Assembly (NCBI RefSeq): GCF_001592965.1
Contig: NZ_LRPC01000012.1
Span: 248,001 to 312,000 of the forward strand
DNA from: Roseivirga spongicola
GTDB lineage: Bacteria; Bacteroidota; Bacteroidia; Cytophagales; Cyclobacteriaceae
Length of the DNA: 64,000 nucleotides
Reading direction: 5' to 3'
In this document: piece by piece, positions 6,494 to 23,019 of the stretch
Position numbering within the stretch: the first letter of the stretch is position 1
How the letters are laid out: each line of letters starts with the position of its first letter
Translations under genes and position numbers: made by a program
Notes under the pieces: generated by a model
Databases searched by the model: none
Told to the model about the DNA's origin: nothing
The model's input: the letters and a program-made list of their open reading frames with translations, nothing else

Positions 6494-7255
6494 TTAGTTG
6501 GATACCCTGAAATATAGCTGATCTACTCCAGTATTCTTTGATATTCTGTGGTAGGCGGTGATAATTACTTCGTGATTTCCAGTTTTCTCTAAAGTAAGAT
6601 TGGCTGTGAATGTGTTTTCTGAAGGGTTTTGCATGGGGATGTTTTTCCAGAATTCACCATCTACATAAACCGATGCTTTAACATCCATATCGTTTGAATC
6701 CCATAGACCACCATCAGAAATAGTACAGCCACACATCATTACAATGTTGGCCTTCAATTCTACCGTCTTGTCCTCTTCAATGGAAAAGCCTTGATGTGTT
6801 TGAGGGTAAAGGCCATCTACTACAAAACCAGGGATCTCCAGAATCAGTCCCTCACCGTCAATATGTTTACCCGGAATAAGCCAAAGCTGTGTTTGGGCTG
6901 CCACTTTGGCTTCCTTGTGTGCAACAGGGCTGAGTGCTTCTACGGTCACGAATAAAGGTTTTTGCAGGCTGATATTCGCTTCAAAGGCCGCTGCTCCGTA
7001 GGCAATTGGAGTATACCTTTCATGAGCAGTTTTCATGATGGCGTCTGTGTTTCCCGTGCCACCTTCAGTGAGTCCCTTGGCCAATATCTCATTGGTCTGA
7101 GCATCTCTAATAATGATCATTGAACCACCCATGCTGGAGCCTATGAATTTAGCATCCTTGGCCTTGGTTCGAACAATGATTTTAGTGTCTTGAGGCTCCT
7201 GGCTGTATACAGTGAAACAGGAAATTAGAAAAACAGTGATCAGTAGATTTCGCAT
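6494..7255 (-). CDS. Secreted protein of unknown function
   Basis: About 253 residues. I chose the ATG at 7255 because the sequence from there (MRNLLITVFLISCFTVYSQ) is a complete signal peptide; an in-frame ATG at 7270 would add five residues. The mature part looks like beta-sandwich material, with alternating strands, repeated extracytoplasmic phrases such as IIVRTKAKDAKF, and a C-terminal block (VYVDGEFW...NHEVIITAYHR) like an immunoglobulin-type fold. A MMCGCTISDGGLWD segment (about 173-186) holds two cysteines that could bind metal or form a disulfide. Four bases separate it from the downstream ChaN-like gene, so the two are probably co-transcribed. I do not recognise the family. Confidence 0.7.
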   Translation of the reverse strand: MRNLLITVFLISCFTVYSQEPQDTKIIVRTKAKDAKFIGSSMGGSMIIIRDAQTNEILAKGLTEGGTGNTDAIMKTAHERYTPIAYGAAAFEANISLQKPLFVTVEALSPVAHKEAKVAAQTQLWLIPGKHIDGEGLILEIPGFVVDGLYPQTHQGFSIEEDKTVELKANIVMMCGCTISDGGLWDSNDMDVKASVYVDGEFWKNIPMQNPSENTFTANLTLEKTGNHEVIITAYHRISKNTGVDQLYFRVSN

Positions 7256-7407
7256 GGTTGAAGTTAACATTCTTGCCTAGAACTGTCGATCTCTTTTTTC
7301 TGAAAAGGATATTGGTTGATTTTGGAGATTCCCAGTCAAGCTCACTGTTGTCCGGGGAATGACGAATCCGCATCCTTTACGTCATCCCCGACCTGATCGG
7401 GGATCTC

Positions 7408-7533
7408 CTTAACGTACCAATAATTCAAGAGGGAGTATTGAAAAGATGGAATAGGCGATGGAAGGAAGAATTGATTACAGCTTTTAACCCAAAGTTGAGG
7501 GATTTGTGGGAGGAAATTGATGGCTTTAATTAA
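7408..7533 (+). pseudogene. GIY-YIG 3' remnant, copy 1
   Basis: Begins directly after a type-B hairpin and matches the last ~40 codons of the intact gene at 7709-8008, including GATGGAAGGAAGAATTGATT and the terminal TTTAATTAA. The 5' two thirds of the gene are absent and small indels break the frame. The last 90 bases are almost identical to the intact copy, so the duplication is recent. Confidence 0.85.
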
Positions 7534-7708
7534 GCTTTAGAGATTCCCAGTCAAGCTGGGAATGACGGATCCGTTAGGCTTGGCTCTCTAAGTTTGTATT
7601 GCATAAACAGGCAGCAGGGTAAAAGATTTAGATTCTGTATCGGTCACGTCATCCCCGATTTGATCGGGGATCTCATTCAGTTTTCGTATTTTCAATATAA
7701 ATACACAA

Positions 7709-8008
7709 ATGCCAAAAGGTGGATACGTATATATCATGTCTAATAAGACTCGAACGGTTCTTTACATCGGGGTCACTTCTGATTTAGAATCGAGAGTTTA
7801 TCAACATAAAAATGGAGAAGGGTCAAAGTTTACCAAACTCTATCGTTGCTACTTTTTAGTCTATTACGAAGTGTTTGATCATATCGAGTCAGCAATTGCT
7901 AGAGAGAAGGTGCTGAAAAAGTGGAATAGGCGATGGAAGGAAGAATTGATTACAGCTTTTAACCCAAATTTGAGGGATTTGTGGGAGGAAATTGATGGCT
8001 TTAATTAA
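7709..8008 (+). CDS. GIY-YIG nuclease (small single-domain, YhbQ-like)
   Basis: A 99-residue protein made of one GIY-YIG endonuclease domain. GYVYIMSN (5-12) and LYIGVTSD (18-25) form the GIY/YIG strands. The arginine in ESRVYQH (about R29), the glutamate-bearing helix IESAIAREKVLKKW and the C-terminal NP pair are the remaining expected active-site elements. It has no separate DNA-binding domain. It lies between inverted hairpins (7647-7674 and 8015-8042), starts 35 bases after the left one and ends 7 bases before the right one. About 63 of 99 residues are identical to the second copy at 9670. It may be a repair-type nuclease or the agent that spreads the surrounding element; the latter is inference. 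Confidence 0.9.
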   Translation: MPKGGYVYIMSNKTRTVLYIGVTSDLESRVYQHKNGEGSKFTKLYRCYFLVYYEVFDHIESAIAREKVLKKWNRRWKEELITAFNPNLRDLWEEIDGFN

Positions 8009-8085
8009 GCTTTAGAGATTCCCAGTCAAGCTGGGAATGACGAATCCGCATCCTTTACGTCATCCCCGACCTGATCGGGGATCTC

Positions 8086-8210
8086 TTTAATGTACCAGCA
8101 ATTCAAAGGAGAATATTGAAAAGATGGAATAGGAGCTGGAGGAAGAATTGATAACAGCTTTTAACCCAAAGCTGAGGGATTTGTGGGAGAAAATTGATGG
8201 TTTCAATTAA
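8086..8210 (+). pseudogene. GIY-YIG 3' remnant, copy 2
   Basis: Same architecture as copy 1: a type-B hairpin (8058-8085), then the last ~40 codons of the nuclease gene down to TTTCAATTAA, then a type-A hairpin at 8217. It has several substitutions and a short deletion after GATGGAATAGG compared with the intact gene. Confidence 0.82.
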
Positions 8211-8351
8211 GCTTTGGAGATTCCCAGTCAAGCTGGGAATGACGGATCCGTTAGGGTTGTCTCTCCAAGTTTGTGTTGCACGAAAAGGCAGTAGGGTACA
8301 GGTTTTAGATTCTGTATCGGTGACGTCATCCCTGACCTGATCGGGGATCTC

Positions 8352-8465
8352 TTTAACGTACCAGCAATTCAAGGGAGAGTACTGAAAAGATAGAAGGAAG
8401 AATTGATTTCAGCTTTCAACCCAAAGTTCAGGGATTTCTGGGTGGAAATTGATGGTTTCAATTAA
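8352..8465 (+). pseudogene. GIY-YIG 3' remnant, copy 3
   Basis: The shortest remnant. GTACCAGCAATTC aligns with the codons for SAIA of the intact gene, then about a dozen bases are missing around GAAAAGATAGAAGG. It ends in TTTCAATTAAG before a decayed type-A hairpin (8472-8497). Confidence 0.8.
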
Positions 8466-8605
8466 GATTTGGAGATTCCAGTCAAGCTGGGAGTGAGGAA
8501 TCCGTTAGGCTTGGCTCTCTAAGTTTGTATTGCATAAACAGGCAGTAGGGTACAGGTTTTAGATTTTGTATCGGTAACGTCATCCCCGACTTGATCGGGG
8601 ATCTC

Positions 8606-8731
8606 TTTTACGTACCAACAATTCAAAAGAGAGTAATGAAAAGGTGAAACAGGACATGGAAGGAGGAGTTGATTACAGCTGTCAGCCTAAGGCTTAGAGA
8701 TTTGTGGGAAGAAATTGATTGCTTTAATTAG
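8606..8731 (+). pseudogene. GIY-YIG 3' remnant, copy 4
   Basis: The most diverged remnant in sequence but close to full remnant length. It still shows GGAAGGAGGAGTTGATTACA and GAGATTTGTGGGAAGAAATT, and ends TTTAATTAG. It follows a type-B hairpin (8578-8605) and precedes a type-A hairpin (8738-8764). Confidence 0.78.
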
Positions 8732-8819
8732 GTTTTGGAGATTCCCAGTCAAGCTGGGAATGACAAATCCGCATCCTTTTCGTCATCCCCGACCTGATCG
8801 GGGATCTCAGTTTGAAAAC

Positions 8820-9608
8820 TCACCTCACCTTCGCTTTCTTAATCATTCTTGCAAATAGGCCTGGTAAGAAACGCTTCACAAAAGCACCATAAGATTCTCT
8901 ACCGATATAGACTTCTCTTTTTTCTTTCACCATTGCCTTAACAATGGCCTTCGCACATTCATCAGCCGTCAGACCATTGGCTTGAGCATTGTCCATGCTA
9001 CCCAATGCTGAGCCATCACCAATAAAAGCATTCACGCTGACATTGGTTTTTACAAAACCTGGAGCTGCGATGGTTACTTTGATTCCACTGTCCTCCAGTT
9101 CTGCTCGCATGCTGTCGTAAAATCCGTGCAGAGCATGTTTGCTTGCTGCATAACCAGATCGATAAGGAGTGCCGAAAACCCCAGTAAGGCTGGTGACTAC
9201 CACGAATTGACCGGAACCTCTTTCCAGCATATGAGGGAGAAGTGCCTTTGTAAGTCCAACTGACCCAAAGTAGTTGACTTCCATCAGGTCTCGATCTACT
9301 TGAAGAACCGTGTCTTTGACTAAAGATCTTTGGCTGCGTCCTCCATTGTTAATTAGAATGTTTACTTGGTCAAAGGCAGAAATGGCTTCCTGAACCTTCT
9401 TCTCGAAGGTTCCTGACTCTATCAAATCTAGTGGTAGAACTTTGATTCTGTCTTGGTTAGCACACTCTAACTTTACCCTTTCCAGTTCATCTTCTCTTCT
9501 TGAAGAAAGGATGAGATTAATTGGAAACAGGGAAAGCTGTTTGGCGAGTGCTTCGCCAATGCCTGAAGATGCGCCTGTGAGCCAGATGGTTTTGTTTTGA
9601 AGATTCAT
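8820..9608 (-). CDS. Short-chain dehydrogenase/reductase
   Basis: About 262 residues, classical SDR fold. The cofactor loop TGASSGIGEAL lies just after the start, followed by INNGG, a catalytic serine in VVTSLTGVF, and the catalytic pair in GYAASKHAL. The substrate is not evident; a C-terminal tail rich in basic residues (FLPGLFARMIKKAKVR) resembles membrane-associated SDRs. I use the ATG at 9608 because it gives the normal SDR N-terminus. The longer open frame to 9671 would add 21 residues, part of which (GIPAFAGMT) is only a translation of the hairpin repeat at 9619-9645. Its 3' end abuts the last hairpin of the tandem array. Confidence 0.88.
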   Translation of the reverse strand: MNLQNKTIWLTGASSGIGEALAKQLSLFPINLILSSRREDELERVKLECANQDRIKVLPLDLIESGTFEKKVQEAISAFDQVNILINNGGRSQRSLVKDTVLQVDRDLMEVNYFGSVGLTKALLPHMLERGSGQFVVVTSLTGVFGTPYRSGYAASKHALHGFYDSMRAELEDSGIKVTIAAPGFVKTNVSVNAFIGDGSALGSMDNAQANGLTADECAKAIVKAMVKEKREVYIGRESYGAFVKRFLPGLFARMIKKAKVR

Positions 9609-9618
9609 ATCGTTTATT

Positions 9619-9996
9619 GTCATTCCTGCGAAGGCAGGAATCCCCCCTTTAATTTGGCTAAATTTAATCATGGGTAAAAACGGTTATGTATACATCGTGT
9701 CAAATACTCATAGAACTATGTTCTATATTGGAGTCACTTCCGATTTGGAAAGCAGAGCTTATCAACATGAAAATGGTTTAATGAAGGGGTTTTCTAAGAA
9801 GTACAATTGTGTTGACCTGATTTACTACGAGGTTTTCAATCATATTGAGCCTGCAATTGCTCGAGAGAAAGTACTCAAGAAGTGGAAGCGGGAATGGAAA
9901 GAGAGAATCATTCTAGAAATGAATCCGGAAATGAGAAGGTTAAATGATGAGGTTTTTCGTTTCAATTAGGATATCCCTGCCTGCGCAGGAATGACA
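9619..9996 (+). mobile_element. Second GIY-YIG/hairpin element
   Basis: Left terminus at 9619-9645 (GTCATTCCTGC, GAAG loop, GCAGGAAT) and right terminus at 9973-9996 (ATCCCTGC...GCAGGAATGACA) are inverted copies of each other and each folds into a hairpin. They enclose one intact GIY-YIG gene with 24 bases on the left and 3 bases on the right. The CGTCAT/GTCATTCC ends match those of the 7.3-8.8 kb array although the stems differ. Mobility is inferred from architecture; no target-site duplication is obvious. Confidence 0.6.
9670..9969 (+). CDS. GIY-YIG nuclease (small single-domain), second copy
   Basis: A 99-residue single-domain GIY-YIG protein. Motifs are GYVYIVSN (5-12), FYIGVTSD (18-25), ESRAYQH, and the helix IEPAIAREKVLKKWKREWKE. 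All residues expected for catalysis are present, so it should be active. It is divergent from the dehydrogenase gene (start 9608) and is tightly enclosed by inverted hairpins. It ends MRRLNDEVFRFN, a C-terminus that drifts from the first copy, while the central half is almost identical. The two copies are therefore paralogues of some age, not a fresh duplication. Confidence 0.9.
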   Translation: MGKNGYVYIVSNTHRTMFYIGVTSDLESRAYQHENGLMKGFSKKYNCVDLIYYEVFNHIEPAIAREKVLKKWKREWKERIILEMNPEMRRLNDEVFRFN

Positions 9997-10115
9997 GGCC
10001 GGGAGTTGGTCACGTGCCGATAGTTGCCTGATGTTGGATCCCCACGCGCGGTTGTACCCAGACTTAAGTGAATCCATGTTTGCTTTTGATGCAGCACACA
10101 GATGGCACGAACTAT

Positions 10116-10153
10116 CTCCCTCTTTGAAGAGGGAGTGCCGAAGGCGAGGGAGT
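10116..10153. repeat. CTCCCTC-type hairpin repeat
   Basis: CTCCCTCTTTGAAGAGGGAG is a near-perfect inverted repeat, followed by GTGCCGAAGGCGAGGGAG, which pairs again with the CTCCCTC arm. It lies just beyond the folA stop. It may serve as terminator; T-runs are weak. The 188-base gap 9970-10157 holds nothing else that I can identify. Confidence 0.5.
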
Positions 10154-10157
10154 AGAT

Positions 10158-10664
10158 TTATTTCCTCAAATAAGTCACAAAGTCAAAAGCAAATTGATGC
10201 TTTTCGTCTGCAGGGTGGTGAACACGAGTTTCCTCTTTCCAGTTTTTGTGATCGAACTCGGGGAAGAATGTATCTGCCTCATCAATAATGGCGTTGACTT
10301 CCGTAATATACATTTTGTCTACCAAGCCTTTATCTAGTGAGTCTTTGTAGATTACCCCTCCACCAATCACAAAGACCTCTTCCACTTTAAGTTCATCTTT
10401 GGCTAATTCAAATGCAGCTTCCAGACTGTTGACAGCAAAGTGACCTTCAGGAGCTTGATAATCTTCTTGTCGGGTGACAATGATGAAGGTTCTTTTCGGA
10501 AGAAGTCCAGGTAAGGAATCGAAGGTTTTTCGACCTAAGATCACAGCATGATTCAGAGTGACTTGCTTGAAGAAGCGGAAGTCATCTGGTAATCGCCAAA
10601 GTAGGTCATTATCTTTTCCAATGGCATTGTTTTTCGATTTGGCTACTACTATAGTCCTGATCAT
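10158..10664 (-). CDS. folA: Dihydrofolate reductase
   Basis: A 168-residue enzyme reducing dihydrofolate to tetrahydrofolate with NADPH. It has the N-terminal strand TIVVAKSKNNAIGKDNDLLWRLPDD, where W23 and the acidic residue at about 27-28 sit in the substrate pocket, then GRKTFDSL (cofactor binding) and VFVIGGGVIY. Length is standard. Its ATG overlaps the fmt stop codon by four bases, so the two are translationally coupled; both depend on the folate one-carbon pool, since Fmt consumes 10-formyl-tetrahydrofolate. Confidence 0.97.
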   Translation of the reverse strand: MIRTIVVAKSKNNAIGKDNDLLWRLPDDFRFFKQVTLNHAVILGRKTFDSLPGLLPKRTFIIVTRQEDYQAPEGHFAVNSLEAAFELAKDELKVEEVFVIGGGVIYKDSLDKGLVDKMYITEVNAIIDEADTFFPEFDHKNWKEETRVHHPADEKHQFAFDFVTYLRK

Positions 10665-22983: not shown

Positions 22984-23019
22984 CGTCATTCTGCTTTGAG
23001 GCCTCAAAGCAGAATGACG
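22984..23019. repeat. Perfect 36-bp palindrome between convergent genes
   Basis: Two 18-base arms beginning CGTCATTCTGCTTTGAGG are exact inverted copies with no loop. It sits between the ends of the VOC lipoprotein gene and the orphan kinase gene and could terminate both, although T-runs are poor. The CGTCATTC ends are the same as in the hairpins flanking the GIY-YIG genes. Confidence 0.85.

Follow-up and report, generated by a model that had tools for sequence, protein, structure and literature searches.

A small gene for a GIY-YIG nuclease in Roseivirga spongicola lies between two inverted hairpins with CGTC tags, and relatives of this gene in many bacterial phyla are accompanied by hairpins of the same general type. 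The nuclease family is probably a dedicated, type-matched partner of the CGTC-tagged REP palindromes (the probability is put at roughly 0.6), and it is a strong candidate for the missing enzyme of these repeats.

CGTC-tagged REPs, as the main text of PMC3733652 describes them, have a CGTC tag (also TGTC or CCTC), a stem of 8-9 bp that starts with AT and a loop of 4-5 nt. They occur predominantly as HH dimers, with the tags outside, are known from five phyla and include the dRS3 repeats of Neisseria and the RPE-4 and RPE-6 repeats of Rickettsia. This 2013 survey (Di Nocera et al.) concluded that there is apparently no dedicated transposase; its main text contains no occurrence of 'GIY' and reports that no associated transposase gene was found. 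Passages of PMC1564403 and PMC12306157 likewise make no link between GIY-YIG proteins and REPs. No earlier report of such a link was found in the full-text literature other than subscription papers and preprints, and priority is not certain.

The elements of the window and their protein

The window, which is the whole stretch of 64,000 nucleotides that was analysed, belongs to a genome of 4.48 Mb in 33 contigs. The intact gene (7709-8008, + strand) encodes 99 amino acids and matches PF01541 with an E-value of 1.7e-18. Its left hairpin (7647-7674, + strand, strict detector) and its right hairpin (8015-8042, - strand), an inverted copy of the left one with 21 of 28 positions identical, both carry the CGTC tag at their outer ends. 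An intact nuclease gene between inverted hairpins, the right one diverged, is what the earlier note had described, and the REPIN-like layout it had recognized is also borne out: with the tags pointing outwards and the gene inside, the arrangement is that of an HH REP dimer. As part of the preferred reading, the gene and its two hairpins probably constitute one small genetic element of about 400 bp. The strict detector, which looks for a tag plus a stem, has 15 matches in the window, 12 of them inside 7380-9996, compared to a total of 2 matches in 20 first-order Markov sequences of 64 kb. An Rfam scan of positions 7000-10300 gave no family reaching its gathering score.

Beyond what the earlier note had described, the intact element is surrounded by an array (7328-8808) of 12 hairpins, 11 called by the detectors and one seen by eye, and four truncated copies of the 3' end of the gene. 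The outermost hairpin on the left is degenerate (7328-7364, - strand; L233 1829-1865). The first truncated copy, about codons 69-99 (7439-7533, + strand; L006), lies between a CGTC-tagged hairpin (7380-7407, + strand) and an inverted one (7540-7567, - strand). To the right of the intact element, the hairpins at 8058-8085 (+ strand) and 8217-8244 (- strand, inverted), both CGTC-tagged, enclose the second copy (8115-8210, + strand; L009). The third (8385-8465, + strand; L010) is positioned between a CGTC-tagged hairpin (8324-8351, + strand) and the degenerate inverted hairpin that was seen by eye and missed by the detectors (8472-8498, - strand; repeat family D4). The fourth (8621-8731, + strand; L008) is positioned between a CGTC-tagged hairpin (8578-8605, + strand) and an inverted, TGTC-tagged one (8738-8765, - strand), and a final CGTC-tagged hairpin (8781-8808, + strand) forms the right end of the array. 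All CGTC- and TGTC-tagged hairpins of this paragraph were called by the strict detector.

A second GIY-YIG gene (9670-9969, + strand; ORF and profile match) also encodes 99 amino acids, 64% identical to those of the first. It has its own TGTCATTCCTGCG hairpins, which differ in sequence from those of the first element; both are TGTC-tagged and were found by the strict detector (left, 9618-9645, + strand; right, 9969-9996, - strand). Elsewhere in the genome three further homologues (L003-L005) and a disrupted one (L007) are flanked, as judged by eye, by yet other GTCA-type palindromes, and two more distant GIY-YIG matches (L011, L012) had no GTCA-type palindromes on the same inspection. A perfect double-tagged palindrome with CGTC at both ends, like those at unoccupied element sites of other genera, is located at 22984-23019 of the window.

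The hairpins of the window agree with the published CGTC-REPs in the unpaired terminal CGTC, TGTC or CCTC tag, the stem with a complementary AT start, the stem length of 8-9 bp and the loop of 4-5 nt (one window copy was counted as 9/3). Several hairpins that flank the relatives differ from them in having loops much longer than the published 4-5 nt.

The protein belongs to the GIY-YIG superfamily by its PF01541 match and by a GIY...YIG core with the catalytic Y, R, E and N. Pfam and NCBIfam scans of the protein returned GIY-YIG only, with no HUH/Y1 tyrosine transposase domain. The catalytic positions Y8, Y19, G21, R29, H33, E66 and N85 are conserved in 127-128 of 128 homologues. The closest solved relatives by sequence are PDB entries 1zg2 (E 1.2e-7) and 1ywl (E 1.8e-6), which are UPF0213 or small stand-alone GIY-YIG proteins. 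The predicted fold is confident (pLDDT 92.4), and in a fold comparison UPF0213 (1zg2) comes first with an E-value of 1.1e-3, no match being at or below 0.001, followed by structures of Slx1, which are branched-DNA enzymes. The link to REPs was seen for the subfamily of the window, but not for the UPF0213 proteins. With GIY-YIG homing endonucleases such as I-TevI the protein shares the catalytic domain and, in the scheme proposed below, a split-target logic. However, there is no intron, the 99 residues contain neither NUMOD nor another DNA-binding domain, and I-TevI resembles it weakly in fold (rank 19, E 1.6).

Association of the nuclease subfamily with CGTC-type hairpins

Relatives were collected by a search with five proteins from the same genome, which confirmed at least 576 of at least 585 candidate stretches, and the best 80 were kept. 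The record titles of these best 80 span many phyla and groups, for example Bacteroidota, Proteobacteria, Leptospiraceae, Nitrospirae, Thermotogae and Patescibacteria. A general detector, defined by a GTCA(T/C) tag, a 5-bp stem and a longer loop, found a hairpin within 200 nt of 75 of the best 80 homologues, compared to 86 of 862 control ORFs taken from the same DNA. Hairpins were present on both sides of 58 of the 80 but only 12 of the 862, and pairs with outward tags at 42 and 6, respectively; five of the 80 had no called hairpin. The strict detector gave the same picture for the best 80 at the same distance (51 of 80 against 41 of 862 other ORFs; on both sides, 31 against 4). Upstream, the closest hairpin lacks the tag-outward orientation in 18 of 65 cases, and downstream in 19 of 68. 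In an unsupervised test of the same 80 loci the most enriched 6-mers were GTCATT, CGTCAT and TGTCAT.

The earlier note had predicted that homologues would be enriched beside such hairpins, as is the case here, and had named hairpins equally common next to any gene as the contrary outcome. Strict hairpins are instead concentrated near the gene, with 4.9 per kb up to 100 nt away from it but 0.05 per kb at distances of 2-10 kb. The enrichment at the homologues also supports its suggestion that something other than a RAYT may mobilize these units, insofar as movement can be deduced from it.

The association is specific to this GIY-YIG subfamily. In related genomes, 37 of 43 homologues have a hairpin within 250 nt (the limit for the best 80 was 200 nt), 27 of them on both sides, whereas hairpins accompany only 2 of 22 weakly related GIY-YIG paralogues from the same genome group, one of them on both sides. 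The homologues are 43 of 61 strong matches from outside the genome of the window, and the paralogues 22 of 28 listed weak matches. In a phylum-wide sample a hairpin was found at 26 of 29 homologues and on both sides of 19; hairpins on both sides occurred at 3 of 45 neighbouring ORFs, and any hairpin at 25 of the 45, a count that is no clean control because those ORFs adjoin elements. Nine of ten elements with known gene positions in records of a plasmid collection have a hairpin within 300 nt, and a further element (L194) has hairpins on both sides. In one record of N. gonorrhoeae the homologue lies among CGTCATTCCCGC hairpins, which are of the CGTC-1/dRS3 kind by sequence resemblance. On a Planktothrix plasmid (L330) a homologue with clusters of hairpins has a type IIL restriction enzyme gene on one side and drmA, from a DISARM system, on the other.

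Within a locus, the hairpins on the two sides match each other in type. Their first 8 stem bases are identical in 53% of the 91 loci that have both, compared to 3.8% between loci. Hairpin type also tracks the relatedness of the protein between genomes, but not among the paralogues of one genome. Protein identity predicts hairpin similarity in the set that crosses phyla (rho.40, permutation p.003, 2775 pairs), as it does in comparisons between related genomes (rho.24, p.003, 854 pairs). When the host is kept the same, hairpin similarity is higher for the closest protein of another genome (.78 vs.64 in 219 comparisons, which are not independent of each other). Within one genome the two similarities are uncorrelated (rho.055, p.40, 49 pairs of paralogues).

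The hairpins could in principle be ordinary terminators or structures that stabilize RNA, the nuclease having an unrelated housekeeping role, and some dispersed copies do lie inside terminator-like stems. Such an explanation is very improbable. Tag-outward pairs on both sides are far above those of other ORFs, and this extends to small ORFs, of which 3 of 222 have hairpins on both sides, compared to the 58 of the best 80 among at least 576 relatives; moreover, the type matches between the two sides of a locus. Terminators alone are set aside as the main explanation, because the hairpins are both paired and type-matched.

Hairpins without the gene and unoccupied sites

Of the 32 genomic copies of the window's hairpin type, 10 belong to the array and 22 lie outside it; the reversed control pattern has none. 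The type is dispersed and multicopy like the CGTC-REPs, and 9 of 20 inspected copies outside the array have a called opposite partner with an outward tag within 100 nt; for some of the others a degenerate partner is recognizable by eye. Many of these dispersed dimers (L234-L263) are enclosed by common terminator-like arms (GGCTGTCTCAAAAGC ... GCTTTTGAGACAGCC), and in G016 such arms at one site enclose a different hairpin type. Comparison with G015, G016 and G018 gave neither clean empty sites nor boundaries for the dimers, the intergenic DNA being too diverged.

Copies with an internal deletion, in which roughly the last 25-30 codons survive, were found in the window, in an element of the same genus with another hairpin type (L175), in Sinorhizobium (L183) and in a gammaproteobacterium (L050), and they retain both hairpins. 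No cis-acting role is claimed for the deletion point near codon 70 in these four elements, since remnants that retain the 5' part also exist (L268, L269, L139).

One hairpin type was surveyed in 148 genomes of the phylum: it is present in 26 of the 66 that have a homologue and in 9 of the 82 that do not (Fisher p 7e-5, ignoring phylogeny). Three of these nine, G040, G144 and G170, have no GIY-YIG homologue at an E-value of 0.001, and the other six have weak matches only. G040, which belongs to the same class, contains 438 copies of a GTCATTGCGAG...GAAGCAATC hairpin. Within the genus the ATTGCGAG type occurs in 16 of 19 genomes and the ATTCTGAG type in 7 of 19; by a hand tally, genes flanked by the ATTCTG/ATTCTA type are present in 5 of the 7 genomes with the ATTCTGAG type and in 3 of the 12 others.

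The element is present in some genomes and absent from others at orthologous sites: fnrL-regulator in Sphingobium, sufB-sufC in Azospirillum, gltA-lpxB and a second site in Sinorhizobium (all from the plasmid collection), and the fol-SDR interval of the genus. The last of these holds an element in 3 of 13 genomes (G000, G003 and, decayed, G016); without it the interval measures 52-123 nt in nine genomes and 747 nt in one. In the interval between the left gene and SDR, G018 has just one element, which is frameshifted, and G000 has the array. Between sufB and sufC, elements with different hairpin types were found in Azospirillum lipoferum (L186 2876-3384) and Shinella (L194 1154-1580), which suggests that this is a recurrent site for GIY-YIG elements.

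The earlier note had looked to orthologous loci for precise empty sites. Presence and absence were found, but simple clean empty sites were not: at 3 of the 5 sites that could be compared, a gene-free allele has a single double-tagged palindrome, and the remaining alleles examined have none. Of the 10 unoccupied alleles in the plasmid collection, 4 contain the palindrome, representing 3 of the 4 sites, and six do not; in the fol-SDR interval it is present in 0 of 10. Its outer pairs are perfect in Sphingobium TYG64 (12/12), with 10/12 in TYG74, 10/12 in K101 and 9/12 in Ak57. The background is 8 double-tagged palindromes in the 1,225,006 bases of the 80 loci. In Sphingobium the palindrome is equal to the outer halves of the two hairpins, left and right, fused to each other. 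The single palindrome may be an insertion target, or what a deletion between stem repeats left behind. Neither element ends nor a target-site duplication could be delimited, as the flanks have diverged too far or have a palindrome in common.

In one alternative, the REPs are insertion targets only, and the gene is a free-standing passenger of the homing type in palindromes spread by other means. GIY-YIG domains are known from homing enzymes (parts of PMC1564403), REPs have been reported as targets of IS elements (PMC1525189), G040 has many hairpins without the gene, and three unoccupied sites carry the double-tagged palindrome. Even so, this is unlikely, as a pure passenger need not keep both hairpins in its internally deleted copies, nor need the hairpin type follow the protein between genomes.

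Possible modes of spread

The RAYT/REPtron and REPIN system of GTAG REPs has a comparable organization: inverted palindromes flank a small enzyme gene, and dimers of the same palindrome that lack the gene are scattered through the genome. The two systems differ in their enzyme, an HUH/Y1 transposase there and a GIY-YIG nuclease here, and in their tag, GTAG there and CGTC here. The resemblance of the outward-tagged dimers, with and without the gene, to REPIN and REPtron layouts would fit a RAYT-like process without homing, in which the nuclease excises and inserts the hairpin-ended unit in the manner of a transposase and single palindromes are scars left by loss of the unit. A deletion between the stem repeats of two hairpins would yield exactly the single palindrome seen. 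Nevertheless, such a process is doubtful, and more so than a passenger gene: no target duplication is definable because the flanks diverge, and no GIY-YIG enzyme is known to act as a transposase of this kind.

In the preferred reading, a type-matched partnership of nuclease and palindrome, the element probably spreads in a homing-like or REPtron-like mode. The nuclease would cut the palindrome, as a duplex, a hairpin or a cruciform, and repair anchored on the REP arms would spread the element together with derivatives that lack the gene. The best fit is a homing-like cycle, in which the double-tagged palindrome would be the intact target; in the occupied state the gene would separate the two tags, and the element is therefore proposed to be immune to its own enzyme. 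If correct, this unproven version would account for three things: the outward position of the tags and their separation by the gene when an allele is occupied, the pairing of each hairpin type with its enzyme, and the presence of palindromes in unoccupied alleles of three sites.

Several observations count against the preferred reading: the hairpins of G040 without a homologue, the palindrome-free unoccupied alleles, the uncorrelated paralogues within a genome, the nearest hairpins that lack an outward tag, the tally of hairpin types in the genus, which gives no clear answer, and the five homologues with no called hairpin; movement, too, is only deduced. A tentative generalization, at less than even odds, is that throughout the bacteria CGTC palindromes serve as homing sites, and as split-target ends, for tiny self-spreading GIY-YIG elements, in parallel to RAYT/REPIN with an unrelated enzyme, the double-tagged palindrome being the target and tag separation the basis of immunity.

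A gene family physically and evolutionarily tied to the CGTC-REPs would answer how these repeats arise, and the tie to a nuclease makes their origin directly testable with an enzyme of 99 residues. It would also mean that the lifestyle of a REP plus an enzyme was invented at least twice, by unrelated enzymes, and would supply a function for the many genes annotated merely as 'GIY-YIG nuclease family protein'.
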